Shown one piece after another: positions 2,238-23,539 of a DNA stretch of 64,000 nt. The position numbers and the translations under genes were made by a program. Where the stretch lies: NCBI GenBank assembly GCA_037576215.1, contig JBANDB010000012.1, positions 744,001-808,000 of the forward strand. Direction: 5' to 3'. A model generated the notes under the pieces. That model was not told the origin of the DNA. It saw only the letters and a list, made by a program, of their open reading frames with translations, and ran no database searches. Source of the DNA: Armillaria gallica. Lineage: Eukaryota; Basidiomycota; Agaricomycetes; Agaricales; Physalacriaceae. How positions within the stretch are numbered: the stretch's first letter is position 1; every line of letters begins with the position of its first letter.

Positions 2238-2252
2238 TTACCCCCTTCTTAA
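2238..2252 (-). other. Polypurine tract of A
   Basis: On the minus strand this reads aagaagggggtaa directly before the TGTTACAATTT start of the 3' LTR. This is where plus-strand DNA synthesis is primed in Ty3/gypsy elements. Confidence 0.8.
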
Positions 2253-2272
2253 GGCAGGCATCCCGACTGCTG

Positions 2273-2758: not shown

Positions 2759-3004
2759 TGAAGCTCCCTTTTTGGCAATGATTTCAAAGGGGCCTGTTTG
2801 TTTGTCTGTGAGCTTCTTCTTTGGATGAGGGAGATGGAGGTTGGTCGTGTCAAGCCAGACTTTATCGCCTCAGTTGTACTCAACCGCTGGTTGTTTACTT
2901 TTGTTGTATTGGGCTTTCATTTGGTTGGCAGCTTTTTCCAAGGTGTGTTTGGGGTTGGCATGGATCTGCTGCATTTTAGAGACAAAGGTATGTGAAGCAG
3001 GGGT

Positions 3005-3720
3005 TCAGAAGGGAGTCTGCTGTTTTGCTCCTGGAAGTACATTAATGTTGAAGCCATAGTTGACTTCAAAGGGGCTTTTGCTGGTGGCCAAATGAACTCG
3101 GTTGTTGTGGGCAAAGGTAGTGAGGATGAGCCATTCTTCCCAGTTGGTTTGGAGATGGTTGACAAAGATACGAAGGTACTTCTCGACTTCTTGATTGACT
3201 CTCTTGGTTTGCCTGTCAGTCTGTGGGTGAAAGGCTGTGGACATGTTACTCTGGATCTGGAGCAGATCATAGAGGTCCTTCATGAACTTGGAGACAAACA
3301 CAGTTCCCCAGTCAGAAATGACCACTCATGGCATCCCATGTTTGGAGTATACTTCATCATGTAAGATTTTCATCCATCCTTCTGATGACAGTTCTGTGGA
3401 GCATGTGACGGGAATGATTTCTTTGGAGAAGCGGTCTACGATCATGATGATAGTGTCGTAGCCATTGCTTTGGGGTAGGCCGGTAATCATGTCGACCGAG
3501 ATGTGAGTCCAGAGTCGAGAGGGGATGGCATTGGGGTGAAGTGGTGCTGCTTTTGCTTGCATGCTTGACTTGGTTTGTTGACACATTTTGCAATCGTGAA
3601 CGTAAGTTTCTACATCCTTTTTCATCTTGGGCCACCAGTACTCCCATAAGACCAGCTCCTTTGTCTTCTCAATGCCTGGATGTCCTGCGGTGATGTGATC
3701 ATGCGATCATGCTATGATCT
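3005..3720 (-). pseudogene. Element A integrase (broken)
   Basis: The HHCC zinc-binding module reads H-DHITAG-H then CKMC at about 3,715-3,560. The DDE core follows: VDMITGLP holds the first Asp, VISDWGTVF the second, and FHPQTDRQT leads to the Glu in RVNQEVEKY. An in-frame TGA interrupts the core between GMP and VVISD near 3,325, most simply a CGA arginine codon that has mutated. The third and last pol enzyme is therefore inactive in this copy. Confidence 0.88.
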
Positions 3721-4069
3721 CCCCTTGCAGGGCATGGTCTCTGGGCACGTAAATCCTACTGTCATACCAGACTAGTCCTTCCTTCAGCTCCATTCCTCAG
3801 TCATGGTTGACAAAGCCTAATATGTTATTATCCCATAGGTGAATATTACAGGTAGCATCTTTGATACGGCTATGGGCTTTGTCAATGGTGGGCATGATCA
3901 TAGCCCAGAAGTGATTCGGCTTGAGAACTACGACTTCATTATTATCGTCTTTGCCTTGTGGATGGTCTGCACGTCAACTAAGTAAGTCTGCCTTCTTGTT
4001 CGCGGTGCTGGCTTTGTGATGTAGAGAGAAGTGATACTCTGCCAGTTCAGTAACCCAATGAGCTTGTCA

Positions 4070-5230
4070 TCAATTGAGTTTCTGTGGCTTCTGGAAGTAC
4101 TGGAGGTTCTGATGATCAGTCCAGATTTCAAAGTCTTGGAAGGCTCCCATGAGATAGTGCCTCCACTCATCCAGTGCAAGCATGATGGCAAGGAGTTCCT
4201 TGTCATAAATCTTGTAGTTTTGTTCCGTCACTGAGAGTGCCTTTGATAGGAATAAAACTGGTCTCCACTTCCTGTCTTGCTCTTGTGACAGGACGGCACC
4301 AATCGCTCCCTCACTGGCATCTGCTTCTATGCAGAACTTTCCCTCCTCTGTTGGTATTGCCAGCACCATGTCCTTTGCTAGTTGGTCTTTTAGCTGCTGG
4401 AACACCATCTGCTGTGCCACTCCCCACTTCCAGATTTTGTTCCCAGTCAGCTGTGTCATTGGCTTCACAATTTTGCTGTAGCCTTGGATGAAGCGCCTGT
4501 AGAAGTTGGTGAACCCTAAAAAGGATTGAAGTTCCTTCTTCTTGTTAGGCACTGGCCACTCCGTGATCCCTCTGACTTTGACTGGATCCATTTGGATGCT
4601 TCCTTCACTGATGATTACACCCAGATACTCTGTCTCCAGAACCTCAAACTCGCACTTCTCCAGTTTTAGGAACAGCTTGTGTTTTTGCAACACCTTCAAG
4701 ACTTCTCGTGTTATCTGACGATGTTCTTCTTTTGTTTTTGACATAATGAGAATATCGTCGAGGTAGATGGTGACTGCTCCTGATGCAATTAAGTCTTTAA
4801 AGATGTCATTCATCATCCATTGGAATGTAGCAGGCGAATTTGTGAGTCCAAAGAACATGACTGTAGGTTTGAACAACCCTTAGTTAGTTCTGAAGGCCGC
4901 CTTCCATTCATTGCCCTGTTTGATGCACACATTGTTGTAACCCCAATAAACATCCAGCTTGGAAAAATACTTGGTGCCCTGCAACTTGTCCATGAGCTCA
5001 GAGATGAGTGGTAACGGGTACCAATTTTTGATCATCATTTCATTGAGCTTTCAATAGTCCTGGACTGGTTGTAACTTGCCATCTTTCTTTTTGACAAAGA
5101 AGAATGGTGAAGCCATGGGGGATTTGGAGGCATGTATTCTTCTGCTAGAGATATTCTCATCTAAGAACTTGTTGAGCTCCTCTTGTTTGGTTCGATTGAG
5201 CGGGTAGACTTTGCAATCCAAGTTGGCATT
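4070..5230 (-). pseudogene. Element A reverse transcriptase and RNase H (broken)
   Basis: The long open part, 4,876-4,070, contains IYLDDILIMS (catalytic YxDD box), the FLGFTNFYRRFI thumb motif and RNase H motifs CIEADASEGAIG, YDKELLAIM and IWTDHQNL. Upstream, from 5,230, the fingers motif [20 protein letters not shown] and then YFSKLDVYWGYNN are readable but interrupted by two stops: TGA near 5,052 after QDY, and TAA near 4,879 after RTN. Both replace codons that are Arg in related elements. Order and motifs are typical of chromoviruses. Confidence 0.9.
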
Positions 5231-5439
5231 GGCATTTGGTCCAGAAACAATTCAGGATGTGACCATTGTCACAATTGAAAAGTTACTCCAAATGCCAATG
5301 CCAACTTGGACTGCAAACAAAATTGTCTTTGTCAAACAAATCTTTGAAATCCCTACACCAATTGGGAACCATTTCCTTGAATGTTTTCATCTTCTTGTCT
5401 GCATTCGCTTTTGCAGCAAGGTCATTTGTGACATGTCAC

Positions 5440-5960
5440 ATTGCTCTGATCCGAATAGCTTCCCCAAAGTCTATTGCCAGGATCATATCTCCTTCTTCCA
5501 ACTCCTCGTCCCACTTGTCGTATGGGTCAGCATCCGGCAACACGATCAGCATTTTCCGGCACTGGCATCAGCCAAAGATTGTTTTCCTGGTCTTCCAATT
5601 GATCAGCGGATTGTGTCGTGCTAGCCAATCATGTCCCAGGAAGATCACCCGGTCTTTCAACTCAGTGATGGCGAGGTCAATTCATTTGGAGTGATCCCTG
5701 ATTGTGATGTGGAGTTCAGCAAAGGCTGTGATCTGCCCTGCTTGATTCTTTGTTCTGTCTGCATTATAGACTGTGATTGGGGCAGCAGTGGCATGAGTAG
5801 GGATGCTGTGTTTTTCAATGAACTCTCAGCTGATAGCACTGTTGGTGCATCTGCTGTCAACTAGTGCACTTGTGGAGATTTGAGTTCGGTTTTCTAGTGT
5901 CTTGATTTGAATGTTGGTTACTAGATCCTTCCCTCCCCCGCTTTGTCAACAAATGTATCG
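5440..5960 (-). pseudogene. Element A aspartic protease, active site altered
   Basis: The retropepsin region reads SALVDSRCTNSAIS near 5,850-5,810 and ends in FLGHDWLARHNP near 5,625, the usual gypsy protease signature. The catalytic triplet is expected to be D-S/T-G but reads D-S-R, which a single G-to-A change would explain. A TGA also interrupts the frame near 5,681. The protease cuts Gag-Pol in intact relatives; this one is very probably inactive. Confidence 0.75.
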
Positions 5961-6014
5961 CCTTGGCTGTTGCAACTCTTCAAGCCATTCAAGGGCATTG
6001 ATTCATTCTGCATG

Positions 6015-6479
6015 TCACATTCCCTCGAGCATCTCATTGACCACCTCTTCGATTTGTGCTTTGTGAATCCAATTCTTTAGGATTGCTTTGGCCTCCAATT
6101 CTGTCTTTGCTTCTTTAATCCCATGTAAAGTCCATTTGGCATCAAAAGGCTTTAAACATTCATGCAGGACCTTCTCAGTCTTTGCACCAGAACTCAAAGG
6201 TTCAGTTACCGTCGACTGGGTCACCTTGGATGCTACAGGGGGTATTATGTCAGCTTTCTGCCCCATTTGAAAGCTCATATCATCTTCATCATTGGGAATT
6301 TCTTCTATATGCACCTTAGGTGTCTCTCGCCTTGTTTGGGCCCTCTCATTCCTGTTGGTAGGGGTCTCTTGCACAGGGTCAATTAAGTCCATGGTCTTCA
6401 CCAAAGCCCCTTGATGTATAAGGGATTTAGACTTCAGCATCCTTACGGTAATCTCCATTCCCAGAGGAGGTTTTGCCAA
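6015..6479 (-). CDS. Element A Gag-Pol linker region
   Basis: This open stretch of 154 codons lies between the zinc-knuckle Gag and the protease. It is charged, with an acidic patch (EEIPNDEDD) and a C-terminal helical part ending in VVNEMLEGM. No catalytic motif is visible. It most likely belongs to the start of the pol polyprotein, and a similar linker is common in mushroom chromoviruses. Confidence 0.5.
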   Translation of the reverse strand: MAKPPLGMEITVRMLKSKSLIHQGALVKTMDLIDPVQETPTNRNERAQTRRETPKVHIEEIPNDEDDMSFQMGQKADIIPPVASKVTQSTVTEPLSSGAKTEKVLHECLKPFDAKWTLHGIKEAKTELEAKAILKNWIHKAQIEEVVNEMLEGM

Positions 6480-6840
6480 AGCTATTCCTCAAAGCTCCCA
6501 GCGAGGCTGGGACTCCATGGAGCTGCTTTGTCAGGGGGGGCACCAGGCGCTTGTTCCCCTGCCCCATCTGGTCTAACCATTATGATGGGTGTCACTATGG
6601 TAGGTGACTTGTTGTTCAATGCTTTCGCCTGTAATGGGTTACTTACCGAACGTTTAGCCAGTAGTTTAACTGTTATGGCATGCTGTACTGTTGATTCTTG
6701 CTTAGTTTCTGGTCTGGAAGTCATAATCATGGGTATATTCAAATGCGTGTTGATAACTACTGAAGTACTATAAGTCCAACTAGCAGGCATGATATGTGTA
6801 CCAGATGAAACTAAGTCCTTGGCCGGGTAAGTTGAATCAT

Positions 6841-8367
6841 TTACTTCCTGGCATTATCTTTTACTTCCTTGACCTTTGACTCCATCAGTGCTTCTTCTGT
6901 TGGTGCATGGTCCCAGTAATAATTGAGGTGTCTCATTGCCTCCTCCCATGTCTTTGGCTGGTCAGGGCAGTCACATTTGAAGTGACCGAGCTTGCCGCAT
7001 TGGAAACACTTGGCTACTGCATGTGCTCTGTCAATGTCCATGGGCATGCCTTGTCCCCCATAAGTCATTCCGCTGCCTGTCTTTCTTTCAGGCATGGTGG
7101 CTGATGTTTGTCCTCCCCTCTGTGGTGCAGTTGCCTTTGACGCTGATGACTTGTTGTCGCTGGTATGACCAACAGTAGGATTCTCTGCCTGCTTGAGGTG
7201 GTAATTGTAGTCCATGTGGAGAAGACAGTCCTTCCATCCTTGATAAGTGGTCGGGACTTCTCCATCCGCTGCGAAGATAATGTTTTTACTGGTTTCATGG
7301 GCCACTTTCCTCATCTGTGAGTACATCATCTGCTCATTGTCACATACTCCTGCCTCAAAGGCTAACTCCTCAAACTTCTGGAAGAAGAGGTCTCCATCCT
7401 TGAAGGCAACCTGTCTTAGCTTCTCCCATAGCGCATACTTGATCTGTGCATCTGAGTCCTTCCAGAACCGGCATCTGACTTCTGTTTTGAAGTCGTCATA
7501 AGCTGGGTAGAGCTGGTCCCTGTTGGTGTTGACACCAAGGGTTCGGGTTCCTAGCTCCCACCATTTCTGTGCTTTGTCATCAAATCGCAATGTGCAGAAG
7601 ATGACTTTATGGGGATGGTGGCGGAAGTACTGGTTGAAGACTGAGAAGTACATCTCACACTGTGAGAAGAACCAGGTAATGTCTGAGGCCACCCTCTTGA
7701 AGATGCTGGGTTCTCGCACCATATTTGGCTTGAGCCCTGCCCAGGGTCCCAGTTCATCATGGGTTAATACCCAGGGAGCTGGAGAAGCTGGGGGGTCAGG
7801 AGGTGCCAGGTGTTGTAGTAGTGCCCATCGTTGTGCGTTTGCTGAAGGGGGAGGCGGTGGCAAGTCAGGGGGTAGTGGATCCTCCCTGTCTGCCCCAGTG
7901 AAAGGTACCCATCCTCGTGGATAGGTTCCTGGGGGTGCCTCACCTCGACAGAAGGGGTATGCAGTTACCGTTGCATGGGGTGGTGGAACTGGTGGTTTGT
8001 CTGGCATTGGTTCTGGAGTGTCAGTGTCAGGGGGTAGATCTATTTTGGGCCCCTGATAGGGAGAGATTACCTGTAAGGTGTCATCGGGGTGGATCATATT
8101 CCAGGTGACGCAGGTGTATCTCCCTGTGTCTCCTTGGAGTATGTAATTGAGCATGAGGTTCTTCTGTTCCTTAAAATAAAAGTAATCAAATCCTGTATCT
8201 GTGTTTCTCCAGGCCAGATCGGATACTAATTCATGAGCAAAATAATTAAATAACTCCAGGTAACTTGTTAGTAGTAGTACTTCTGGCATATGAATGATTT
8301 TGCTGCATATGAGTAGCCGAAGCCCTTCATGCAGCATCATCAGCATTGGGAGTCTCATTGGTGTCAA
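6841..8367 (-). CDS. Element A Gag (capsid and CCHC zinc knuckle)
   Basis: This open frame of 508 codons starts with a proline-rich linker (PPVPPPHA, then DLPPPPPSANA). A capsid-like helical domain follows, with KAQKWWELG, YDDFKTEVRCRFW and KDGDLFFQKFEELA, the retrotransposon Gag signature. Near the C-terminus CFQCGKLGHFKCDC is a canonical CX2CX4HX4C RNA-binding knuckle. Gag assembles the cytoplasmic virus-like particle. This is the best preserved ORF of element A; the true start may lie further upstream through splicing or frameshift repair. Confidence 0.9.
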   Translation of the reverse strand: MTPMRLPMLMMLHEGLRLLICSKIIHMPEVLLLTSYLELFNYFAHELVSDLAWRNTDTGFDYFYFKEQKNLMLNYILQGDTGRYTCVTWNMIHPDDTLQVISPYQGPKIDLPPDTDTPEPMPDKPPVPPPHATVTAYPFCRGEAPPGTYPRGWVPFTGADREDPLPPDLPPPPPSANAQRWALLQHLAPPDPPASPAPWVLTHDELGPWAGLKPNMVREPSIFKRVASDITWFFSQCEMYFSVFNQYFRHHPHKVIFCTLRFDDKAQKWWELGTRTLGVNTNRDQLYPAYDDFKTEVRCRFWKDSDAQIKYALWEKLRQVAFKDGDLFFQKFEELAFEAGVCDNEQMMYSQMRKVAHETSKNIIFAADGEVPTTYQGWKDCLLHMDYNYHLKQAENPTVGHTSDNKSSASKATAPQRGGQTSATMPERKTGSGMTYGGQGMPMDIDRAHAVAKCFQCGKLGHFKCDCPDQPKTWEEAMRHLNYYWDHAPTEEALMESKVKEVKDNARK

Positions 8368-8503
8368 GACAAGTCTCTAGGATTGAGGATGGGGAGGGGC
8401 TGTTGAATCTGGTTCCGTTGATGTAGGCTTCGGCAGGGAGTACCTCGGTACTGATGGTGCTCATCTTGCTTGGCCAGCGACCAAACCTGACCATTTCAAG
8501 GGT

Positions 8504-8983
8504 TCATGGATTGAGCTGGGGCTGTGTTTGGGGTACTCGCCTACGATGGGGAGGATGGGATGGTCCAGTGACTGGCTCGGTGACAGGGGCAACAGTGTTT
8601 TCCTGCTCAGTGATTCCCTTGATAACCCACTCGGGGATCTGCCAATTGGGGAAGTAGGTGCTGAGGGGAATAACAAGGTTATCCCAGAGCTCAGCAGGAG
8701 TGAACAGGGCATCGGATGATACAGATCCTGCAGTCCTAGTACCGATATTGGCTGTTGTGCTGGGATAGGGAGTGGCGGGTCTGCTGAAATATGCCTTGCC
8801 CAGCTGGAATCTGGTGAGCACCATGGCAAGCTCATCCCCAGATAGGGGAGAGGGGCTACAGATGTGATACTTGGGAGAATTGGGGATTGGGCTGGGAGCT
8901 GCAGTGGAGAGGAGAATGACAGGTCTTCCAGGAGGGCTGGCAAGTCTGACTGAGCAAACACTGCTTTTGCTTTGCCAAACCAC
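8504..8983 (-). CDS. Element A upstream gag region, fragment
   Basis: This open frame of about 159 codons lies directly 5' of the main Gag ORF. It contains a structured stretch (GDELAMVLTRFQLGKAY, then TPAELWDNLVIPLSTYF) and a Pro/Ser-rich remainder. Its position suggests the Gag N-terminus, separated from the rest by a stop near 8,504. I recognise no specific domain. An overlapping frame at 8,461-9,087 is Ser/Pro-rich and judged a shadow. Confidence 0.45.
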   Translation of the reverse strand: MVWQSKSSVCSVRLASPPGRPVILLSTAAPSPIPNSPKYHICSPSPLSGDELAMVLTRFQLGKAYFSRPATPYPSTTANIGTRTAGSVSSDALFTPAELWDNLVIPLSTYFPNWQIPEWVIKGITEQENTVAPVTEPVTGPSHPPHRRRVPQTQPQLNP

Positions 8984-9061
8984 AATTTCTTCCTGCTCAC
9001 GGTGGAGCTCAGGGAGGTGGTGGACTGGTGATGACCTGCTACGTGATACAGATGGCTGGAC

Positions 9062-9235
9062 TCACCTTGGCTGGAGTGGGATGTCATTGCCGGTGTTCTG
9101 GGGGTCTATGTACTGGTTGATAATGACTGTGTCTGCTTGCCTGTGAAACCGTACGGTGATTATGACTGCCATGGTAATAAGCACAAGGCTGGGGAACAGG
9201 GATGAGGCTAGGATGATGGCGCTGTCTTTTTCCAT
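9062..9235 (-). CDS. Small 57-residue ORF with one membrane helix at the 5' end of element A
   Basis: It begins at an ATG at 9,235, about 40 bp inside the 5' LTR, and ends at TGA 9,064-9,062. Residues 6-28 are strongly hydrophobic (IILASSLFPSLVLITMAVII) and are followed by a basic turn (RFHRQ). The final codons CCAAGG run straight into TGAGT, so the sequence also reads as a splice donor (AAG|GTGAGT). The ORF may therefore be a short first exon spliced to gag. No function is known; presence in other copies would decide whether it is real. Confidence 0.4.
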   Translation of the reverse strand: MEKDSAIILASSLFPSLVLITMAVIITVRFHRQADTVIINQYIDPQNTGNDIPLQPR

Positions 9236-9275
9236 GAAGGCTCCGGTAAAGGAGCTAGGGAAGCTTTGAGCTAAT

Positions 9276-9664
9276 TGTTAGACCTGATCTCCAATCAAGA
9301 GTAAACAATGGCTGTATCACATTCATACAGTCACCATTGAGTCTCATGATGAAAGGAGGTAGGACTAAGTCTTTAGCCTTTGGCAGAGAGAGAGAATAGT
9401 TTAGTATAGATTAATGATAGCTCGAAGCTGGGGAATATACAGCAAGAGCTACACTACTTATATACTAAGTTGAAGATTCTAAGTATAAAATTAGCATGCA
9501 TGAAAGAAGCGAAAACATGTGTAGAAGAACAAGAGGGCCATGCGGTGTTACATGTGCTACTTTGTTGGGTCTAGGCACGGTGATCGGTCCAGGTTGCCTA
9601 TAGATAAGATAAGTGCCAAAGATAAGATAGGCTGAAGATAAGGAAAAGTGAATAAATTGTAACA
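9276..9664 (-). repeat. LTR of A, right (5') copy
   Basis: This is an uninterrupted copy of 389 bp, TGTTAGACC...TTGTAACA. The following GTTAC (9,665-9,669) repeats 205-209, the target duplication. As the 5' LTR it should hold the promoter. Confidence 0.92.
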
Positions 9665-9915
9665 GTTACTGAACGTTGTCTGTAGCAGAGAATATATCTA
9701 GTCACTGACTGCAGTTATGGTTGCGAGCCTAAATGATTGGCTCATTTGGTGAGCTCTTACCTCTAGCAGAGCTAGAAGTTCCTACAGCTTATATGTGAAG
9801 CAACATTGGTAAAGATGCAGTGAAAAAGTAGATGATAATCTCTAACTATGAAACATTGAGCTAAGTAACTGAGTATGCTTATGTAATCCTAGGGTTGTTA
9901 ACTAGAGGTGTCACA
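9665..9915 (-). repeat. LTR of B, left (3') copy, second segment
   Basis: It matches 23,289-23,539 and ends GGTGTCACA. Together with 158-209 it restores a full LTR equal in length to the right copy. Confidence 0.9.
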
Positions 9916-9930
9916 ATATCCCCCTGTATG
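9916..9930 (-). other. Polypurine tract of B
   Basis: On the minus strand catacagggggatat directly precedes the TGTGACACC start of the 3' LTR, as expected for the plus-strand primer. Confidence 0.8.
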
Positions 9931-9934
9931 AGGT

Positions 9935-10250
9935 TTACAAGAGATAATCTGCAAGGGAGTGAGGAGTCACATCACTAATTCACTCCTGCAAGAAACTCTT
10001 CAGGCTTTCCTGTGACCCTTCTGCTACTTGTCTGTCCTCTGAATCTTGCTTGTCATGGACTAGAATCATTAGATGCTTCACAATCACTTGAAGTTCATGA
10101 GCTGAATGAGTGAGGGTAGCCATTCATCTTTGTCTATGGCACGCTGCTGATATGAGGGCAGGGACAGGGGACAATCTTCCATCAGTGGGCGAGCCATTAG
10201 AGCTTCCCCAGGTAGTATCGTAGAGGTCTTCCTTGCTGGACACCTGTTGT
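9935..10250 (-). pseudogene. Element B extra ORF (ORF3), C-terminal part
   Basis: On the minus strand a readable frame runs from SSKEDLYDTTWGSSNG through HELQVIVKHLMILVHDKQ to SDVTPHSLADYLL, then TAA at 9,937-9,935, only 4 bp before the polypurine tract. Two stops interrupt it. It continues the frame cut at 13,303 by the DNA transposon and has helical, charged character. I do not recognise the protein. See the N-terminal part at 13,303-15,127. Confidence 0.6.
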
Positions 10251-10255
10251 CACAG

Positions 10256-10505
10256 GGATTTTGCTTGGGCTCTGGAGCTAGCCACCAGGACCTGTTAAAT
10301 CCTCTGGGGAGCTACCCAGAAACTGGCTATATCCACATTCTCACAAGTGAGCCATATTCCCAATGTGGTTTGCTTTGTAATTGTTGAAAAACACTGCCAC
10401 AGCCAAAATGGCCTGTTCAATGCCTGGGATGGCATTGATTTCCCACCCTCCCACTCATTGCTGGGATGGGTAAATATTTTCCTGAGCTAAAAATATATGT
10501 TAGAA
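10256..10505. repeat. Left terminal inverted repeat of the 3-kb DNA transposon
   Basis: It begins ggattttgc and is the inverse of 13,030-13,297. By eye identity is high in blocks (ctcccactcattg, ctttgtaattgt) with scattered transitions and small indels. Confidence 0.75.
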
Positions 10506-10608
10506 CCTATTCCTGACCTGATCCCCACAATAGGCATGCACAAAATGATGGATTCATCAAAAGCAGACTGGATTACCTTTTTTTTTATGGAATAAAAAAA
10601 TGATCAAG

Positions 10609-10687
10609 CGACCAGAAGGATTCAAATGTGTGCACTAAGATTTAATTAGACCTGCACAATACAATACTACCACTACACCATAAGAGC
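10609..10687 (-). repeat. tRNA-derived SINE-like sequence
   Basis: On the minus strand TGGTGTAGTGG (10,680-10,670) fits a Pol III A box and CATTTGAATCC (10,628-10,618) approximates a B box, about 50 bp apart. The would-be acceptor arms do not pair, so it is not a working tRNA gene. Confidence 0.45.
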
Positions 10688-13029
10688 ATTATATATGTAT
10701 AAAGTAAAGGCTACTTGTAGGTAAAATTTACATTTTTCCTAAATAAAAAAAAATATCCGGCATTGCAATGGGCACTACAGGTGTGGGTATTGTCAGTGGG
10801 CATGGCAGGCATGCTAGTTGGGAGGGAACATCATCCTATACATGTGAATGGACACTTGCTGGATATCCGAGGCAGCCAGAGTGTTGTTGAGATGTGCTAG
10901 AGGGGCAGAGAGGGGCCTGTGCTGTTTTGACACAATGGTGAGGTCTGAGGCAAGAAAGGACCTCACTACAAGATTCCCCAATGTCAAAAACAGGGGTGGT
11001 GAGGTCCAGGTGGCAGTGGCAAGGCTGTAGGGGTTTTTAGAGGGTGGAAGGGGTGGACATGGCGATGGGGTAGCAACACCCAGCGACAAGGGCACCAGGG
11101 ACATTGGTGCACAATAGAGTAATATTCTCCCACCCAAAAGATGGGAGATGCATGACTCAGGGGTCACTGGGTCGCTTGAGCCCTGGGTGGAGTGGTGCAT
11201 GCTGATGTTGGATAATGGTGGGGTAGGCAGCAGCAGCAGCGACAATCATTGTACATCAATGATTCTCAAATAGTTCAATACACCCTAGGGACCTCCTTTG
11301 ATGCCTAAGGGGATGGAGCTGTTGTCATCATTGTTGGCTGTTGGTGTCCCAACCTTTGTCCTGCCATCCCGCTTAACCTCTTCTGCCCTCATACCTCATC
11401 TGTTTCTCCTCTCCTTCAGCATCAGCACTCCCCAAGATAATGCCAGGGCCCTGCCTCAGAGCATAAGTCCCTCCACTCCCATTGTTGTTGTTGTTGTTAT
11501 CATCCTCAGTGTTGCTGCTCTGGTTTTTGCTTGTGCATTTTGTGGGGGTTTCCACATCGAGATAGCATCCAATATAAGTCCTGGGATGTATTTCACACTG
11601 CTTGAGTGTGCGGAAGCTGTGTGTGGTGGTGATTGGCCCCAATGTTGATGTGGGGGGTGCTCAGTTGGTCAGGGTGGGGGTGGGGGTTGTCATCATGGCT
11701 GTGGCAGGGAAATAGCAGGCATTGTGGTCATCTTTGATGGTGGGGATATTGTCCTAGTTGTCGTTGGGTGAGCACACAGTGCTGCCTTATTCGAGGGCTT
11801 ATGCAGCTGGTGGGGGTAGGATACATGCAATCCAGGGCTCTTGGGGCCACTGGATGCTCTTAAATAACCTAAAAACAACATTAGAAGTAAAAGAATGAGT
11901 AAAACTTACAATTTAACAAAGAAAAGGCACAATTTGCATGCTATGTGAGCATAGATGAGAGGCAAAGTGGTGGTGAGAGGAAGAAAAGGAAGCCGCACAG
12001 CCACTTGATCACTATGCAGACTTATGGTCCAGGGCAATCAAGCAAGCGGAATCAGCACTTGGGATGCTTCTGCTGCTCAATGTATGCATTCCGAGGCCCC
12101 AGATATCATCAGGAATGTATTTAATATACATATATTACACACATATGTAGTTATTTCTGGAGCGCTGCACCAGTACAGCATGATAATCTCCATTTATTCT
12201 GAATTACCCCACATTTTGGTACTTCTTGAAGCATATATCCAGTTTATGCACTTCAATATTGCTTGTATCAGCATATTTTCTACTGGAGATACTTTAATAT
12301 ACATCCTAGTAAGTAACCTATGTGCCTGATCCACCCTGATCCACTGCTATGCACCCCATTATCCACCATATTGCTTACAGTGAAAGTAAATTCAACATAA
12401 ATATCAGTATGGTTGTTTTGCATTCTGGGGGCCTTGCAGTACATTAATTTCAGGGCAGGGTCTTAAAGAAGTATAAAATGATGTTAAATAATGCAATGCA
12501 TCCTCATTTAAGATATATATTACCATCTGGATGTACAGAGTAATATATACCCTCCAAAATATCAAATTTAGGTGGTTCTAAGTATATTTTTGCTATCATT
12601 TGCCCTTTGAATTAATGCTCTTTGACTGAAAACTATATGTACATGTCTTACAATCCTTCTTTCAACTGTCTATGATATTTATAATGTAAATAAAGCTTGC
12701 AAGATACTCAAATGAGGAAAAGGTTGCTTCCTGCCAGCCATTGTAGGTATTCTCAGCAAATTCCAAAACTTGCCGAATTGCCATTTTTCTCAATCGTTTC
12801 TCATGTTTGAAGCAAATACAATGCTAGTCTCACTAAATAACGATAGAGTAAGTTAATGTATATAAATTTATATAACATTCTACTACTATACAGTATTCTA
12901 GCCAAAATTGAGCCCAGTTTTCAAATTGAGTAGCTATCATATTGGGCATGATATTTTCCCATGAGTAAGTACATCCAGAGTTGGATTGGTGCATCCAACT
13001 AATATAGGCACTGGATTGATGGGGTCAGT

Positions 13030-13297
13030 GTGTAATCTAAAAATATATTATTTTCTGCTCCCAGGGAATTTTTTTCAGACCCAAACAATGAGTGGGAGAG
13101 TGCAATAGGCAGCCCCAACAGCCCCAAAGAACATTTAACCCAAATGGGAGGTGGCAGTGCCTCAAGACAATTACAAAGCACCCATTCCAGTAATATTGGT
13201 GAAAATGCACCTGGCTGGACCTAGCCAGTTTCTGGCTAGCTCCCCAGAGGATTTAATGGGTCTGCCTGGCTAGGACCTATGGGAAAAGGCAAAAATC
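13030..13297. repeat. Right terminal inverted repeat of the 3-kb DNA transposon
   Basis: This is the inverse copy of 10,256-10,505. It ends gcaaaaatc and is followed by TACAG. Confidence 0.75.
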
Positions 13298-13302
13298 TAC
13301 AG

Positions 13303-15127
13303 CTAGGGCTCTGCTGGAAGCATGAGACAAATTGTCAAAGGAGTATTCCTCCTCAGAATCCATTCCTTCAGTATGCTCTCATAACCTGTCTTTCTCATTC
13401 TTTGGGCCAGGGTAGAAGGTGGTATCTTCAATGAGGTAGTTGCTATCATGTCACAGGAGTAGATGGACATCCAGAGTTTTTGCAATCTGCCCCATGGTCT
13501 GAGGTAGAGATTTGTATTCAGGGTATATCCAGAATAGGGGTTTGTGCTGGGTTATATAGCCATCAATGATACTGTAGATCCTCCAGCGTGGGATGGGGGC
13601 ACTATAAGTATTAACATCAGCAACATATCCTGAGAGAAATTCGAGGTGACCTTGGAAGGTGAAGTGTATGACAATGCTCTTCTTCCTGTCAAACCAAGAT
13701 TCTCAAACCCTACTGTTAAACCTCAGATCTCCCCAGTCTGTGTACAGGAAGCACCACATGCCTTTCTCCTCACTGCAAATGGAGCCATCTCTCACTTGAA
13801 ACACATGCAACCACTTGTCCTTTGGCACTGTTGATCTACTCACTGGTGGAACTCAAACAAGAGGTATATAATCCTCTGCTATAATCTCCCTAGCCACCTC
13901 ATGCATATCCTCGTGCCAAGCCCAGTACCCTTCTGTCAGTGCTTTGAAGCAGAAGAAACCATGCCCTGGTAGCTCCTGATGCTTCATAGCAGTGTTAAAG
14001 TCTCTTGCCTGCCTCAGCTCCTCATACCCTTGCACTCGACTAGATGAAAACTCAGTACAACCCTCCCACTCAATGTCCTCTGAAGGTAAAGCACCTGAAG
14101 GAACTCCTTCATGCATGTATTTGGTGCTGAAACATATGGCAAAGTCATCGTAGCTGTCAGATGGCTTGGGATTGAATCAAGTCTCCAGGATGGTCATGGA
14201 TCCTGCCTGGTAGACATAGCTTTCATGCTGGTTGACAACCTCTTTTGGGGTTTACTCATGCACAAAGTATACTGGAGGCTTGACAATGTTAAGGAACCAG
14301 GCCAGCACCTCTCTATTCATGGAATTACCCCAGACGCCTAGGTAGTTCATATTTGCCAGAGGTACACAAGAGTTGCGATAGGTTTCAGATAAGGTGTGAT
14401 TGGCTGAAGACATGATATGAAGGGGGATGCCATAGTTTTCTATGCAAGCAGCTTTGCGATATAGCCTTCTCTAAACAGCAACAACCTTGTCAAGCAGGGA
14501 GAAGTATAGGGTTGTTCTGTTAGCTTGCGAATGGCTTTGGGCTTGGGATATTCGGGAAAGCATCTGTCCTATACATGCTCCTTCACCAGGATCTCCCTAA
14601 ACTTCCACATCTGTACATCCAGCTTGAAATTGTGGTGAAGGAGTTCCTTGACGTAATCTTGCTTGACTCTGCAAGAATCTCTCCCCAAATTCCATCATTT
14701 TGACCACATTGGACCATTCTATCTCTCCTGAGTATGGGTGAATAAAAGCTAGCCATGGGCATTTGGGATTGTACTTCTGTGGATGTTCCATATTATCAAA
14801 GAGTCCCAAGTGGCCATCTAGATGTTTGTGCTTGGTGGGAAGGGCATAAGGGATGTGCAATGGATCCTTGACTCTGGGGAAGAAAGGGAAGTGGTTTATG
14901 TCAGCATTGATTGACCACAGCTCAATAGTCTTCTTGAACTCCTTCAACATCTCCTTCTCAGAATAAGCAACTAACCTGCCTGAGTAAGTGTCCCTTTGTG
15001 CAATTAGAAAGTTCAGTTCTCCTCTAACTGTGGGCATGTAGTCATATCCAGCCCAACTGAGAGTTCTGCGTTATCCTTGCAGAGTGAATCCTACATTGTG
15101 GCCAGGATAGAGGCCATCTACATTCAT
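13303..15127 (-). pseudogene. Element B extra ORF (ORF3) in the env position, N-terminal part
   Basis: A reading frame starts with ATG at 15,127 (MNVDGLYPGHNVGFTLQG), 60 bp past the chromodomain stop. It runs about 600 codons in the same orientation, broken by a few stops and about two frameshifts. Clear stretches are 15,037-14,597 (AFIHPYSGEIEWSNVV), about 14,440-14,260 (NYLGVWGNSMNREVLAWFL), 14,116-13,853 (GHGFFCFKALTEGYWAWHE) and 13,485-13,303. Its end is cut by the DNA transposon and resumes at 10,250. Amino-acid composition is protein-like and rich in aromatic residues. I see no signal peptide, membrane helix or known domain, so despite its position it is not an obvious envelope gene. 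Confidence 0.65.
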
Positions 15128-15185: not shown

Positions 15186-15380
15186 CTAAAGGTTCTGAGA
15201 CTTCTTGTATCGCCTACAAATTTCTGGGGCATTTCTTAGAGCATCGGCGGTTTCCCATGTGTCATCTTCTGGACCATACCCCTTCCATCTAACTAGGTAC
15301 TGTTTCTGGCTGCTGGTTCTCTTGCCAGTGTAGCAGTGACCAATTATTGCCTCGACCTTGTATTCCTTGTGGATGTTCAA
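15186..15380 (-). CDS. Element B pol C-terminus: chromodomain
   Basis: This open stretch of 64 codons reads EYKVEAIIGHCYTGK, then KQYLVRWKGYGPEDDTWE, then APEICRRYKK, a compact chromodomain with the aromatic and WKGY core. Its stop at 15,186 separates pol from ORF3. It lies about 450 bp beyond the integrase core. Confidence 0.85.
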   Translation of the reverse strand: MNIHKEYKVEAIIGHCYTGKRTSSQKQYLVRWKGYGPEDDTWETADALRNAPEICRRYKKSQNL

Positions 15381-15830
15381 CCCTTCTCACAGAGAGGGCA
15401 GGGTTTCTTGTGGGCCCCAGTTGGCAGGGGAATTGTGATACAGTTTGATATGCTCAACGTTGATGACAGGGTGCATGGGGTATTCCTCTGGTAAGTGGAT
15501 TCAATACATGTTGTCATTTATCTTTTCCATGACTTTGAAGGGCCCATTCGAACATTGAACAAGCCTCTTACCCATGCCTTGGACCTCCACAAGTTGCAAT
15601 GAATGCATGCTGACCAAAACCTTATCACCCACTTTGATGTTCTCCACAGGTCATCATCCCTTGTTGAAAACTCTGATCTGACATTCTTGGGCTGCTGCTA
15701 GGGAGTCTCTGGCTAGTGCTCAATGATATTTGAGCTTGCCTGCAAATTCTTCTCCTAAAGTGCTGTCCAGGGTGAGTCTCCATATAGCATTCCCCTCTCC
15801 TGCATAGATGCCAATAGTCACGCTCAGTTT

Positions 15831-16845
15831 CTAGCCCATCAAAAGCTCATCTGGGTGATAAGTTGAGGTATGTTTTGATGAATTGTAGGAGCGGCACAGT
15901 TTGCTTAACCATCTTTCCCAGCTCTCCCTATCACTGGCTACATATGCTCGAAGCATTTGCTCGATGGTAACATTCAGCACTTCTGTCTGGCTATCTGTCT
16001 GAGAGTGATGCAAAGATGACAAAGCTAGCAAAGTACTATAGCATTTTACCATGGCTTTCCAAAATACACTGGTCCAACATTTGTCTTGGTCCAATATAAT
16101 CTTCTTGGAGAGTCCATGTGTGTTGACTACCCTCTCAACAAATAGATTAGTGAAGCCTTCGGAGTTTAGTGAATCGTGCATTGGAATCATCAAAGTGAAC
16201 TTCATCAGCTTGTCAACTATAACCAACACAGCCATGTACTGCTCGTCTCCTGATAGGGGAAGCTGTGTAATCAGATCCAAAGTGACAGTCACAAATGGTC
16301 TGGTTTGTATCGCAGCTGGTCTGAGTCCTCCATTATGTCCTGTTCTATCAATTTTGATTTTTTGACAGATATCGCATGACCTCACAAAACTTTTCACATC
16401 CTTAGCCAGGCTGGGCCAATAGAATGAATCCCTCAACCTGGAGATGAACCTTTGTGGTCCTTCATGAGCTCCTTTGAAAGGGGAGCTATGGATCCAATTT
16501 AGCATGAATGTTACCATCAAATTTGGGATGTAATTGCCAATCCGCATTTGCAAAATATAGGAGACCGTTTGCAGCTTTCATGTAGTGGGATGGAGTTAGC
16601 TCCTTGTATGGGCTTTGCATGGTTTCCATATAGCAGTTTTGAAAGCTAGGATCCTTTTTGTAGCCCTTGATGAAGCAATTTATGACTTGCTGATCCGTTG
16701 CCACTAGTAAGTGCAGTTCCTCCTTGCTGAGTTCCTCATTCATCTGATCTGTTTGCTTTGAGCTAGGTAATCCCCAGTCTTGTAGCACATCTGTAGCTGG
16801 TAGGAGGTCAGGAAAGGGTTCTCTATTCACTGCTGGCTCATTCAT
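15831..16845 (-). pseudogene. Element B integrase
   Basis: Two overlapping open frames (16,845-16,486 and 16,553-15,831) cover the domain, so a frameshift lies near 16,520. The zinc module shows HEGPQRF with FVRSCDICQKIK. The DDE core shows VTLDLITQLP, then ILDQDKCWTSVFW, then SQTDSQTEVLNVTIEQMLR. The first Asp of the core is intact, and the acidic residue pattern of the other two positions is recognisable. The frameshift and downstream stops make the copy inactive. Confidence 0.85.
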
Positions 16846-16884: not shown

Positions 16885-17532
16885 TCACCTCAGCTTCCCC
16901 TTGCAGGTTTCCACTCCATTAGTGACACTCTCCTTCACTAGGGATCCTGGGTTATCTAGTACTTCCTCCCACCACGAACATGTAAAGGCAGTGAAGCATA
17001 GGGCATTAGTCTTCCTGTCTTCTGCTTCCTTTGCTCGATCCAGCTTCTCTTGATCTTGGATGATTGGTATGGTCGGGTCGATGGTCGGCAAATGGTGCAG
17101 CAGAATTCTGGGCAATCTTGACAACAGATCTACATTTGAGTGGATTCTTCTGGGTCTATAGATGATGTGTAGGCCAGGAAATCCTGCATATACTGCCCCC
17201 CACACTGCTAGACGCTGATTAGCATTTTCATACACTTGACCCCATTGTAGCACTACATGATCCGTAATGAGAATGACAACTTCTCCCTCAATAAATGGTT
17301 GAAATTTCACCAATGCCTCCTTTGCAGCTAGCACTTCCCTTTCTGTAGTGCTGTAGTTCCATTTGGCTGGCTTGAAAGTATGACTCCGATAAGCTATAAC
17401 CCTCTCCATGTAGACTTCTGTTTCCTCGAACAAAGCCCCCCACTCCTCTATTTCCTTGAACTCTTCTACATCTTTGACCAGGGTGTTAACCAGTTTGGGA
17501 GGAGGTAAAACATTTTCAAAGGCCTTCTTCAA
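16885..17532 (-). CDS. Element B RNase H region
   Basis: This open stretch of 215 codons has YSTTEREVLAAKEALVKF (RNase H helix with catalytic Glu), VVILITDHVVLQW (Asp strand) and a C-terminal IYRPRRIHSNVDLLSRLPR, typical of the RNase H to integrase transition (the usual form is N-x-ADALSR). It follows the reverse transcriptase after a short broken stretch at 17,533-17,754. Confidence 0.82.
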   Translation of the reverse strand: MKKAFENVLPPPKLVNTLVKDVEEFKEIEEWGALFEETEVYMERVIAYRSHTFKPAKWNYSTTEREVLAAKEALVKFQPFIEGEVVILITDHVVLQWGQVYENANQRLAVWGAVYAGFPGLHIIYRPRRIHSNVDLLSRLPRILLHHLPTIDPTIPIIQDQEKLDRAKEAEDRKTNALCFTAFTCSWWEEVLDNPGSLVKESVTNGVETCKGKLR

Positions 17533-17754
17533 CTTTTTATATGTCAGGGTGTCCTTCAGGTTGGTTATTCTGATCTTCTGTATGTGTTGAAGGCTGGAGC
17601 CCAGGGTGTCATCTGAAGTGTCAGTATATAGGTGATATAGATGTCCTTGCTAGGGGTGACCTAGCACTGGAGTGAGTGATAGAGCTTCTTTCACTTGTTG
17701 AAAGGTGACTTCTTGCTCTGCATCCCATCGCCATTTACTGCCCTTTTGCAGAAG

Positions 17755-18585
17755 TCAGAATAAAGGCACTGTGATCATTGAGTAGAATGGTATGTAGGTC
17801 AAGAAGTATACAATCATGCCAAGGAATTTCTGCAATTCATGCACCGATGATGGTCTTTTCAATTTCATGATGGTTGTGACTTTTTCCTGATGCATTGAGG
17901 GTCCTAACCTTGATACCTTTTGACCCAGTAACAAGATAGATGAGTAACCTATGAAGCACTTTGAAGGTGCTAGAGTGATTCCAGCTTGCAAGATGGCTGT
18001 CAGAACCTTGTCAAGGTGTATTAGATGTTCCTCCCATGACTTAGAGTACACAATGATGTCATCAATGTACACCAAGGTGAACAGCCAGAGGTATGGAGAA
18101 AGTATTCCCTGCATGACACATTGGAAAATTGACAGGCCATTACACAATCCAAACAGCATTCGTTTGAACTGCCACAACCCAGTATGGCTGCAAAAGGCTG
18201 TCATTTCCTTTGCTTCTTCCACCATTTCTAACTGCATAAAGCCTGCTAAAGCATCAAATGATGATAACACTTGAGCTCCTGATAGGGCTTGCAAAATTTC
18301 AGATTGCCTCAGAATGGGAAATTCATCAAGGATGGTCTGAGCATTCAATCGTCAATAATTGATGACTAGTCTTGCCTTGCCATTGCGGTATACTACTATG
18401 CAGGGAAACCCCCATGGACTCATTGACAGCTCTATTACCTCCTTTTTGAACCAGGAGCTGATTTGTTTCTCTATCACTTCCCTCTTCACTGGTGGTGCAG
18501 GGTACATAGGGATAGACACTGTTTGAGCACCTGGCTTCAGCAGAATGGGCACTTTAGTTTTCACTCTGCCCAATTGGCCATCCAT
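17755..18585 (-). pseudogene. Element B reverse transcriptase
   Basis: Two abutting frames, 18,585-18,352 (WGFPCIVVYRNGKARLVINY, fingers) and 18,348-17,755 (VLSSFDALAGFMQLEM, then LVYIDDIIVYSKS with the catalytic YIDD, then HELQKFLGMIVYFLTYI), are separated by a single in-frame stop after VINY. Where FGL-NAP is usual it reads FGLCNGLSIFQ. The domain is almost complete. Confidence 0.9.
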
Positions 18586-20621: not shown

Positions 20622-21254
20622 TCACAATTCCCTCCACAGACTAAGCAGACCATCCTCATGTCTTGAAGCTGCCAACAATAATTCCAGAATAGTGCTGTAT
20701 AGCCGGTTGTTAAGAATCGAGGCCCATTGCAATGGCTGTGTTTGTAAGATGTGATGTACAGCCAAAGGGCCATCAGTGTCATCATAAAGAAATGAATGAT
20801 ACAGAGCCCTTCTCTGTATAAAATCTTCGGGCATTTCCTTACTATGTCTGGGCTGTTGGAATCTCATTTCTTTGAACTCCTGGCTCCTCTGCTCCACCCA
20901 ATTATCATTAAGGAAGTGATCATGGATGGCTCTCATGAGCAAATACCAGTCTTTCTGCAGGTAATCCTTGGTGTTTGCTCTCTGTGCATCCCACCACCTT
21001 TTTGCTCGTCCTTTCCAATTTAGCGGAGCTAGAGCACCTAGGCCTATTTGCATTTTGGGTCCTAATTGTGCAAGGTTGCCCATGTTTGTTAGATATTCAA
21101 GCACTTCTTCTCTTAGGCCAGACCACGAAGGGATTATTACCAATGAAAGCTTATGATTAAATTGCCACTCTTCAACTGCCCTTCGAGGATTACTATCTCC
21201 ATTGTTCTGAGTCATGGAGTCATCTGGGTCATCTCCATTGGGAGGTTGCCCCAA
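20622..21254 (-). CDS. Element B Gag capsid-like domain
   Basis: This open frame of 210 codons has APLNWKGRAKRWWDAQ, DYLQKDWYLLMRAIHDHFL and EFKEMRFQQPRHSKE. This W-R-WW...L....FL arrangement matches the retrotransposon Gag family. It sits between a disordered stretch (21,623-21,357) and the zinc knuckle. No CCHC motif is in this piece. Its stop at 20,622 is probably secondary, as readable coding continues below it. Confidence 0.8.
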   Translation of the reverse strand: MGQPPNGDDPDDSMTQNNGDSNPRRAVEEWQFNHKLSLVIIPSWSGLREEVLEYLTNMGNLAQLGPKMQIGLGALAPLNWKGRAKRWWDAQRANTKDYLQKDWYLLMRAIHDHFLNDNWVEQRSQEFKEMRFQQPRHSKEMPEDFIQRRALYHSFLYDDTDGPLAVHHILQTQPLQWASILNNRLYSTILELLLAASRHEDGLLSLWREL

Positions 21255-21896
21255 ATAGAAGGAATTGTGATATCCCCCTTCTTCACTCCTCTCCTCCTTC
21301 CTTGAGCTGGAATCGTCATTTTTCTTTGGTATCCTTCCTCCCAGCCCTTCACCACCCTATTCCAGAGAGAACTTCCAAGAGCTCTGCAAGGGAGCTCCCC
21401 AGCTGTCTGTAGGAGTGGTATGTTTTGTCAATGGAGGTGGAGGTGGGATTTGAACGAACAATTCTTCCTTGTGCAGGCTAGGGCATAATCCAGTTGGTAT
21501 GGCTATTATCCCTTTGTTCCTTTTCAGCCTTGACTCAGTGTCATCAACCAATGGCTTCAGTTGACCCATGCCTAGGATGACACTGATAGGGTGCATGTCC
21601 ACTCTTGCTGACTTTGCTGGCAATTCCTCTCATGTCCAACTAGGGTTAAAAGGATGTGATGGTTGTTTTGATGGAGTTTCTGGTGCTTGGTTCCTAATTC
21701 AAGCTTCCTTGTGTCCATACATCATAGGTTCAGATTTCCTGTAGTACTGTTCCAATCTCTGGATGTTTGCTTCTGTTAGACAGTTCTCTAGTCTAGCAAC
21801 TTCCCCAGGAGCAACAGCCTCTATCTTCTCCTGATAATTGGGTCTGGCTACTAGTTTGGCCAATTCCCAATCTACTTTGCCTTTACCAAAAGCAGA

Positions 21897-23171
21897 TCAT
21901 ACCTTAGTGATAGTGGATAGCATTGAACAATGTTCCTCCTGAGTATGAGGTTGAAATGATCCTCTGAGTCCTATAACATATAATTTAATTCTTTCCTTTG
22001 ATTGAGTTAAATTTTCCACTAATACAGTCCAAACTGTCAACACCTGGCTCAAGCTTGTGGTACCCTCCAGGACTTGTAGGAATTTGTATTGAGGATCAAT
22101 TTCATAGGCCATGTTTTCGCTTTGCCAAAGAAAGCTTGTGAATCCTCTCAACACCTGTTTGACCACTAAAACCACATGTCCCCACATCTTTAATTGGTCA
22201 AGAGTCATGCATTGCATCACCCTTCCATCTATGATTTCTTTGGTCAAGGCCTCACAGTGTACTGGTTCATGGATCAATGAGTCCACCATCTTGGTAAGTT
22301 TGTTCCATGGTGCTTTGCGATTAGGATAATAGAGTTTGATCATGACATCTCTAAGCAGCATCGTCTCCTCTGCTGACACTTCTGGCAGATATCCCCCCTC
22401 TGCTCTGAACATCTTCAATGGATCCTTATCTCCCATGAAAGGATCCCATTGTTGATGGAATTTTTCGATGGATGTGTGTAGCGGCTCATCCTCTAGTTCC
22501 AGGTAGCTGCTATAAAGCAAAAACACTGGTGGGATGCCTCTATCTGAGCCAACAACTCAGTGGGTACCTATCAGCCCAGAAGTTATGCTATCATGTGCAG
22601 TAATGGGGGTCCATTTATCACCTTTGTCTTCTACTTCCTCCAGCACCATTGCTTTTCCTTTTTCCTTGCCCTCCTTCATCTCAGACAGTTTTTCTCCAAT
22701 TATGAAGAATGGGGCAGTGAGATTTAGGTTACTACTATCTTCAGCCTGCAGTTTGATGGCTGGGGTAGGTGGAGTAGGAGCTTGGGAGTCTGACTCGGTG
22801 GGAGCTCATTTTTTGAGAGCTGACATGGCAGGGTTGTTGCTCACAGGGGTGGCAGGCTTACTTGACAGTGCACTCAGGTTCAATGGTGATGAAGGATTTA
22901 GTGCTGACCCCAAGGTGTTCTTGTTGTGATTCGAATTTGGATTCTTGTTCTCTGTTGGGTTGTCATTCTTGAGTTCTTGGACTCATGAATTTGCTTTTGG
23001 GGTTGTTGATGCATTTAAAGAGTTGCCAGAAGGACTGCACATAGGTTTTGTCTTGGGCTTATGGGGGTTGCTAGGTTTGGACAAAGAAGAGGATCCCCTT
23101 CCCATATCTGCAGAGAGGGAGTTGTTGGTGACTTGTGTCATGGTTGTAACAGGGCAAGATGAAAATTTCAA
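21897..23171 (-). pseudogene. Element B Gag N-terminal region
   Basis: One minus-strand frame can be followed from MKFSSCPVTTMTQVT at 23,171 through a Ser/Pro/Asn-rich disordered part into a folded part at 22,526-21,897 (LEDEPLHTSIEKFHQQWDPF, then AEETMLLRDVMIKLYYP). At least three TGA or TAA stops interrupt it (near 22,983, 22,810 and 22,560). The sequence ATGAGAG|GTGAGA at about 23,225 resembles a splice donor upstream of this start. I see no enzyme motif. Confidence 0.6.
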
Positions 23172-23241: not shown

Positions 23242-23539
23242 TGTGAAGGCATCGGTGGCGAGATTGAAGAGTAACATGTAGCGTCATAGTTACTGAATGT
23301 TGTCTATAGCAGAGAATATATATCTCGTCACTGACTGCAGTTATGGTTGTGAGCCTAAATGATTGGCTTGTTTGGTGAGCTCTTATCTCTAGCAGAGCTA
23401 GAAGTTCCTACAGCTTACATGTGAAGCAATATTGGTAAAAATGCAGTGAAAAAGTAGATGATAATCTCTAACTACAAAACATTGAGCTAAGTAACTGAGT
23501 ATGCTTATGTAATCCTAGGGTCATTAACTAGGTGTCACA
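23242..23539 (-). repeat. LTR of B, right (5') copy
   Basis: 298 bp, TGTGAAGGC...GGTGTCACA, followed by TATTT (23,540-23,544), the partner of TATTC at 153-157. Confidence 0.92.

Follow-up and report, generated by a model that had tools for sequence, protein, structure and literature searches.

A broken third gene with stand-alone host homologs behind the chromodomain of an old Ty3/gypsy element in Armillaria gallica

Where does a long coding frame without a recognisable domain, lying behind the chromodomain of a Ty3/gypsy element, come from, and what could it do for the element? This question is raised by a 64,000-nucleotide stretch of the genome of Armillaria gallica (GenBank assembly GCA_037576215.1, contig JBANDB010000012.1; hereinafter, the window) in which one element, denoted B, had been predicted to carry a third open reading frame (ORF3) of roughly 700 codons in the env position. 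Chromoviruses are usually described as gag-pol elements with a chromodomain at the end; a third ORF in the env position is found in errantiviruses and other gypsy elements that bear an env gene.

B is an old, dead Ty3/gypsy chromovirus (Table 1). The reverse transcriptase, RNase H and integrase domains follow one another in the chromovirus order on the minus strand, and the element is bounded by paired LTRs and a short target duplication (TATTC at 153-157, TATTT at 23540-23544), the empty, uninterrupted target being present on contig C11. Given that another element, A (210-9664), is nested within the 3' LTR of B, the full extent of B is from 158 to 23539. The two LTRs differ by 15 transitions and 1 transversion over 296 sites (K2P 0.057). 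Within the gag region, the segment 20625-21254 matches PF03732 at E 0.0021, below the cut-off for that family, and the segment 21897-22526 has no Pfam match; a tRNA search across the window returned nothing. A genome search with the LTR of B yields 3 matches, two being B's own, so that this search detected no second full-length B and, accordingly, no full-length copy devoid of ORF3, which the original prediction had named as evidence that would speak against it.

Table 1. Coordinates in the window of element B, its ORF3 and the repeat nested in ORF3
Feature	Position	Strand	Basis or remark
Element B, whole	158-23539	minus	LTR ends and flanks; element A and the dispersed repeat nested inside
5' LTR	23242-23539	minus	compared with 3' LTR
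Gag region, broken pieces	20625-22556	minus	frames and Pfam
Reverse transcriptase	17758-18351	minus	PF00078, E 8e-20
RNase H	16888-17649	minus	PF17917, E 9e-17
Integrase	15834-16577	minus	PF17921, E 2e-15; rve 0.0028, below its cut-off
Chromodomain, end of pol frame	15189-15386	minus	PF00385, E 8e-16
ORF3 (alpha family), first part, ~605 codons	13313-15127	minus	pieces align in family order; broken by stops and frame changes
Longest open ORF3 piece, 157 aa	14600-15070	minus	50-54% identity over 123-127 aa to five other loci
Nested dispersed repeat splitting ORF3, ~3.05 kb	10259-13312		both ends approximate
ORF3, C-terminal part, ~93 codons	9980-10258	minus	weak match only
Purine-rich tract before 3' LTR	9916-9927	minus	sequence
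3' LTR, main piece	9665-9915	minus	remainder at 158-209, beyond nested element A
3' LTR, distal piece	158-209	minus	severed by element A; 50 identical sites and 2 transitions against 5' LTR

The predicted position and direction of ORF3 are borne out: its ATG (15127) is located 58 bp past the stop of the chromodomain frame, the coding region runs on the minus strand in the same direction as pol, and its stop (9980-9982) lies just ahead of the purine-rich tract, which is followed by the 3' LTR starting at 9915. What does not hold is the single open frame. In-frame stops interrupt the coding region at several points and the frame changes at least twice, the longest open pieces being 157, 107, 83 and 72 aa, and the entire 5.2 kb interval cannot be taken as ORF3 because approximately 3.05 kb of it is a dispersed repeat; the predicted ~700 codons are recovered as the sum of the parts on either side of this repeat. 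The repeat has 64 matches genome-wide, 3 of these within B, and possesses inverted arms of 58 nt (10278-10335 and 13216-13273) that are 84% complementary; several copies end at 13310-13317, and one extends to 10241.

Six pieces of ORF3 match, in order, a single protein family, denoted alpha, with profile E-values from 4e-49 to 4e-06, the profile having been constructed without the B sequence; the segment 9983-10123 is weakly similar to the C-terminal end of the family (E 0.006 in a search of a small set). For the 157-aa piece, the genome contains 7 matches, namely B itself, five loci at 50-54% identity and a fragment on C4; for the 107-aa piece, it contains 6, B itself and these five loci again, the latter with 30-33% identity. 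Open alpha frames are present at three of the five loci (711 aa at C2:6726240-6728372, 711 aa at C1:2186626-2188758 and 723 aa on C7), the best of these host frames containing no interruptions, so that intron loss would be no proof of an RNA route. Whereas the copy in B resides in an LTR element, the alpha genes at the five loci stand alone, outside LTR elements, with neighbours in common, in a duplicated block; thus, the same host harbours a homologous gene outside LTR elements, as would be expected of a captured gene. No gypsy pol was detected within 7.5-10 kb on each side of the five loci (tblastn, E 1e-3, with the B reverse transcriptase, RNase H, integrase and chromodomain and the A reverse transcriptase and gag as queries); the sole match in that search came from the C4 locus, which contains an A-like element. 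As for the edges of the host block, four 801-base probes from C2, at approximately 10 and 30 kb beyond the ends of the 20 kb covered, were unmatched in the 4 kb of C1 where counterparts were expected, although an insertion could shift the register. Beyond this genome, 16 public proteins match the alpha alignment at E <=0.01, nine of them named, all from Armillaria or Desarmillaria, and seven unnamed; ORF3 of B belongs to the same family as these (P0001, P0002 and others) and can be aligned with them, piece after piece, along most of the protein. We found no element other than B that carries alpha.

Has this gene evolved under constraint? Because NG86 gives a saturated dS when B is set against the host clades, codon positions were compared instead, with the ORF3 piece 14572-14694 and the C-terminal tail left out. 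Among the sites on which three host clades agree, taken only from the 365 codons that B shares with all of these clades, B differs at 48 of 219, 48 of 236 and 42 of 75 sites in codon positions 1, 2 and 3, respectively (position 3 versus positions 1 and 2, Fisher P 2.6e-9), and the B branch lengths for the three positions are 0.40, 0.36 and 1.08. Thus, neutral evolution of ORF3, the other outcome that would have counted against the prediction, is not what this comparison with the host clades reveals. In the agreeing-sites test, the rate of change at positions 1 and 2 relative to position 3 is about 0.38 in B compared with 0.13-0.25 in the host clades, so the constraint on the B copy looks weaker. 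The simplest reading of these sequence comparisons is that alpha in B would have been under constraint during the greater part of the time since its separation; the constraint could date from its time as a host gene. In the alpha tree, which has no outgroup, B, on a long branch, falls outside the group formed by the other copies, so that the tree points to no particular donor lineage, and the element-to-host direction fits it equally well. The topology differs among the trees for individual codon positions.

The relatives of B show what else can occupy the place of alpha. Six of them, picked not at random but by match strength, the lists containing 150 and 43 matches, were compared, relatedness between B and the elements with a second ORF3 family, beta, being judged solely by integrase and chromodomain identity. 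Alpha is present in none of the six, and beta follows the chromodomain in five (L057, L059, L060, L061 and L062; L057 was among the sequences used for the beta profile). Alpha and beta cannot be united in one family (profile comparison probability 0.35%); unrelated ORF3s thus fill one slot in related elements. In the best relative by integrase E-value (C1:4628106, flank L058), the 2.8 kb past the chromodomain contain no alpha and no beta, and so beta is not established as ancestral to B. The beta piece of L060 lies 0.2-0.36 kb downstream of the chromodomain match at five of the six loci that it matches, its own included, and one beta element, with LTRs identical at 464 of 467 sites, retains an open 1031-codon frame that stops ~13 bp before the 3' LTR. 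Two beta copies (C19b and C5) differ with dN 0.30 and dS 1.98 over 186 codons, dS being near saturation, and the other five pairs yield dN 0.42-1.04, with dS saturated or 1.8-2.6. PF28437 is precomputed on two beta homologs; a suspected likeness of the beta C-terminus to one of the neighbour genes in the host block did not survive profile comparison (best probability 1.6%). An extra gene, deemed unusual for a chromovirus, is thus indeed present in B, but is less surprising when five of six relatives carry a long ORF of another family.

Basidiomycete Ty3/gypsy chromoviruses include clades such as MarY1, Laccy and Tcn, and the legend of Figure 3 in the same source mentions an additional ORF of unknown function, the legend itself stating neither the element nor the position (PMC2864245). 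B resembles the chromoviruses of that account in its reverse transcriptase, RNase H, integrase, C-terminal chromodomain, LTRs and 5-bp duplication, and differs from them in the long ORF3, drawn from two unrelated families, between the chromodomain and the 3' LTR. LTR retrotransposons of bdelloid rotifers contain varied, unrelated types of ORF3 after pol, with a canonical envelope in one lineage only (PMC5408684). B and the beta elements are similar to these in placing unrelated ORF3s in the slot after pol, but the rotifer lineages covered there lack a chromodomain and their ORF3s include esterase and exonuclease domains, in contrast to alpha and beta, which have no known domain.

So which scenario best accommodates these findings? 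The one that we favour, with modest confidence, is that a host alpha gene was captured by an ancestor of B between pol and the 3' LTR and was long kept as a working accessory gene. The acquisition might have involved readthrough transcription, template switching or DNA recombination; alpha would then have been retained for a long time in the element lineage as a functional accessory gene, after which B would have inserted at the present site, decayed and taken hits from the dispersed repeat, which is DNA-transposon-like, and from element A. The sequences themselves show the anatomy, the homology, the constraint, the lack of membrane-like stretches in the scanned alpha sequences and the use of one slot in the relatives; the direction of transfer from host to element, a time of capture preceding this insertion, expression from the element and a function are what we infer from them. 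The original prediction had offered a captured host gene or an accessory protein, and both fit these findings.

The opposite course of events, in which alpha began in an old chromovirus, as its ORF3, and the stand-alone family in the duplicated block arose by domestication of that element gene, is in our view unlikely, but it is the strongest competitor. The placement of B outside all stand-alone copies, the long uninterrupted frames of the latter and the presence of an ORF3 in several related elements are all compatible with it, but it has to reconcile a single alpha element with five stand-alone loci and the homologs in Armillaria and Desarmillaria, as well as the lack of alpha in all six relatives. 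Slightly less probable still is that alpha never was an element gene, being host DNA that was inserted by chance in one copy of B, before or after the insertion of B itself, and never expressed from the element. A single copy with a frame that is now broken is what one would expect under such an accident; chance would, however, have to account for the sense direction, the start 58 bp past the pol stop and the end just before the purine-rich tract, in the very slot that beta occupies in the relatives.

An origin of ORF3 as a true retrovirus-like envelope gene appears very improbable. In agreement with the prediction that ORF3 has no recognisable domain and is no obvious envelope protein, the scanned pieces match no Pfam family at E up to 1, and in a hydropathy scan, five pieces of B contain no stretch resembling a membrane helix (highest 19-residue mean 0.96). 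Membrane-like and signal-like stretches are likewise lacking in the two alpha homologs scanned, P0001 and P0002, so that neither the signal peptide nor the transmembrane helix of an envelope protein was found in this set, which makes an envelope unlikely; the position between pol and the 3' LTR, similar to that of the third ORF in errantiviruses, is the one point in its favour, but the homologs of ORF3 also include stand-alone fungal genes. Comparison of alpha and beta proteins with Pfam, NCBIfam and PHROGs produced nothing above a cut-off, and the best profile matches to solved structures (E 0.27 and 0.05) were taken as chance. Most likely, then, judging from these scans, the alpha product would be a soluble intracellular accessory protein rather than an envelope; it might, for example, influence how the host deals with the RNA, the particle or the chromatin target of the element. 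Finally, the notion that ORF3 is a chance reading of decayed DNA, to which the many breaks in the frame might lend some appeal, has next to no credibility, being refuted by the ordered match of six pieces to one family.

More generally, and tentatively, we envisage a chromovirus lineage with a modular third-gene slot in which unrelated non-envelope proteins of ~700-1000 codons, not described elsewhere and kept under selection, would have been installed on at least two occasions, with alpha exchanged with the host and the products aiding the element in the cell, a proposal that we hold with somewhat more doubt than confidence. Which functions other than gag and pol a retrotransposon requires in the fungal cell becomes a testable question with a group of elements in which a third gene, long, apparently under selection and not an envelope, occupies a fixed slot and has two unrelated fillings. 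Through the alpha family, an LTR element is connected with a family of host genes, which offers a concrete case for the exchange of genes between retrotransposons and fungal genomes.

Element B, a dead retrotransposon, carries an unusual passenger in the form of a broken gene copy from a fungal family that we denote alpha. B belongs to the Ty3/gypsy elements and reads on the minus strand; Pfam recognises its reverse transcriptase, RNase H, integrase and chromodomain. The chromodomain frame has its stop at 15186-15188, the ATG at 15127 then opens the ORF3 region, and the last ORF3 frame ends with a stop at 9980-9982, directly before a purine tract and the 3' LTR. This is the region of the ~700-codon ORF3 of the original prediction, but the frame is not intact: its longest open pieces span 157, 107, 83 and 72 codons, and a dispersed repeat is nested within it. 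From the layout of this repeat and of the pieces, it follows that ORF3 amounts to about 605 + 93 codons, interrupted by stops, frame changes and the insertion.

A genome search with 10298-13290 of the nested repeat returns at least 64 matches, three of them inside B (40 of 198 candidates scored), and its arms are 58-nt inverted repeats, 84% complementary. Several copies end at 13310-13317 whereas the low end is approximate because only one copy extends to 10241; by eye, an imperfect 8-base repeat is apparent on both sides. Within this repeat, the stretch 10600-10690 resembles, again by eye, a tRNA A-box region; ARAGORN found no tRNA in the window.

LTRs of element B and the insertions nested in it (window coordinates)
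Feature	Position	Strand	Basis or remark
LTR of B	23242-23539	-	LTR comparison
Second LTR of B, two pieces	9665-9915 + 158-209	-	split by element A
Element A (second LTR element)	210-9664		inside 3' LTR of B; GTTAC copy on each side
Dispersed repeat nested in ORF3	about 10259-13312 (~3.05 kb)		inverted ends; genome search, arms

The identity of ORF3 is indicated by its relatives in the same genome. With the 157-aa piece, seven matches are obtained: B itself, a fragment on contig C4, and five loci that are 50-54% identical. The 107-aa piece has six, namely B and, at 30-33% identity, those five loci again. The alpha frames are open on C1 and C2 (711 aa) and on C7 (723 aa), and split on C11 and C13. 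The pieces in B are collinear with the alpha protein, with 45-49% identity across 365 shared codons, and the C-terminal tail beyond the nested repeat matches alpha weakly (E 0.006). Protein searches retrieved three proteins with the C2 copy as query and 16 with the alignment as query; all homologs with a named source (9 of the 16) belong to Armillaria or Desarmillaria.

Outside B, alpha appears as a stand-alone gene. A tblastn search with the reverse transcriptase, RNase H, integrase and chromodomain of B and the reverse transcriptase and gag of A gave no match at E 1e-3 within the 7.5-10 kb examined on each side of the five loci; in the same search, the C4 locus alone holds an A-like element. 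The C2, C7 and C13 loci have neighbour genes in common, in conserved order on the F-box side, part of the other side being inverted on C7 relative to C2; two C2 neighbours show F-box-like matches, one above and one below the Pfam cut-off. The ~20 kb around alpha on C1, C2 and C11 are 96-98% identical (94-96% in one 453-base piece), and both ends of the C2 stretch have exactly three full-length matches each in the genome. This gene block, at least ~20 kb long (stretches L017-L020 and L023-L024), is present three times, on C1, C2 and C11, and C7 and C13/C4 bear older relatives of it. The alpha-bearing block may be a large mobile unit.

In the alpha tree (13 sequences, 126 columns, no outgroup), B branches off outside every other sequence, with a branch length of 1.04 substitutions per site. 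At sites where the three host clades of stand-alone genes agree, B differs at 48/219, 48/236 and 42/75 of codon positions 1, 2 and 3 (365 codons; Fisher P 2.6e-9). The host clades, taken as controls, yield 0.06-0.11 at positions 1 and 2 and 0.44-0.48 at position 3, so the share of changes falling on constrained positions is higher in B, which is what a longer branch that terminates in a dead copy should produce. Under HKY, the B branch lengths are 0.40, 0.36 and 1.08 for positions 1, 2 and 3, in trees that differ in topology; dN and dS of the recent host pair C1-C2 are 0.020 and 0.047. By these sequence comparisons, the alpha copy of B was under constraint for the greater part of its separate evolution, be it within the element or before capture.

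The LTR pair of B differs at 16/296 sites (15 transitions, 1 transversion; K2P 0.057) and that of A at 9/300 (9 transitions, 0 transversions; K2P 0.031). The lower divergence implies that A inserted later than B, as its position also shows, and the transition excess in both pairs suggests cytosine-directed decay. The outer flanks of B are TATTC and TATTT, and C11 has an uninterrupted copy of the repeat that B targeted. In the host block as found on C11, this ~1.37 kb repeat, which B interrupts in the window (1-156 + 23546-24730), is in turn an insertion (L023 ~450-1818). A relative of B lies on C1 (L029 4890-7703; LTR 73%, leader/gag ~66% DNA identity), with no B-like pol stretch seen in the DNA examined around it.

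Do related elements carry anything in the same position? Integrase relatives of B show 27-50% identity (150 of 780 candidates scored), and the chromodomain has at least 43 matches including itself (150 of 388 candidates scored). Among six relatives examined over ~3 kb downstream of the chromodomain, five (L057, L059, L060, L061, L062) contain pieces of a second family, beta; L057 contributed to the beta profile, and for the other four the best-matching pieces score E 8e-30 to 2e-12 against it. Neither alpha nor beta was found in these ~3 kb of L058, which adjoins the integrase match that, B excluded, ranks first by E-value among the matches listed. A genome search with the L060 piece produced seven matches at six loci, L060 included, all behind chromodomains except a weak one on C16 (E 9e-4); the five others (C19, C5, two on C2, C6) sit 0.2-0.36 kb behind one of the chromodomain matches above. 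In the C19 element (C19:484972-497446), whose LTRs are identical at 464/467 sites, beta is open over 1031 codons (493871-496963), and after it come a purine tract and the 3' LTR. Beta homologs were found in A. ostoyae and A. solidipes. Copies C19b and C5 give dN 0.30 and dS 1.98 (186 codons), the other five pairs being saturated or near saturation; these values indicate selection on beta. A single family comprising alpha and beta was rejected, the two being unrelated in profile comparison.

The expectation that ORF3 does not look like an envelope protein is borne out by a simple, untrained hydropathy scan: the 19-residue stretch of highest mean hydropathy scores 1.09 in the alpha homolog P0001 and 0.92 in P0002, and neither shows a signal-like stretch at the N-terminus. 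In the four beta proteins the maximum is 1.57-1.73 and, since two of the four exceed the usual cut of 1.6, a membrane helix is possible in beta.

A survey of chromoviruses in fungi and plants, published in 2010, has, in the legend to its Figure 3, an additional ORF of unknown function in an element that is not named there (PMC2864245), and rotifer LTR elements include several unrelated ORF3 types (PMC5408684). Nothing on a fungal ORF3 of the alpha or beta kind was found in the accessible portions of PMC2774666, PMC10799480 and PMC7487993, and no description of either family was recognised among titles and abstract openings of the open-licence literature, which is not proof of absence. The function of ORF3 is a matter that we infer; the slot that it occupies in B is used by related elements for another extra gene.
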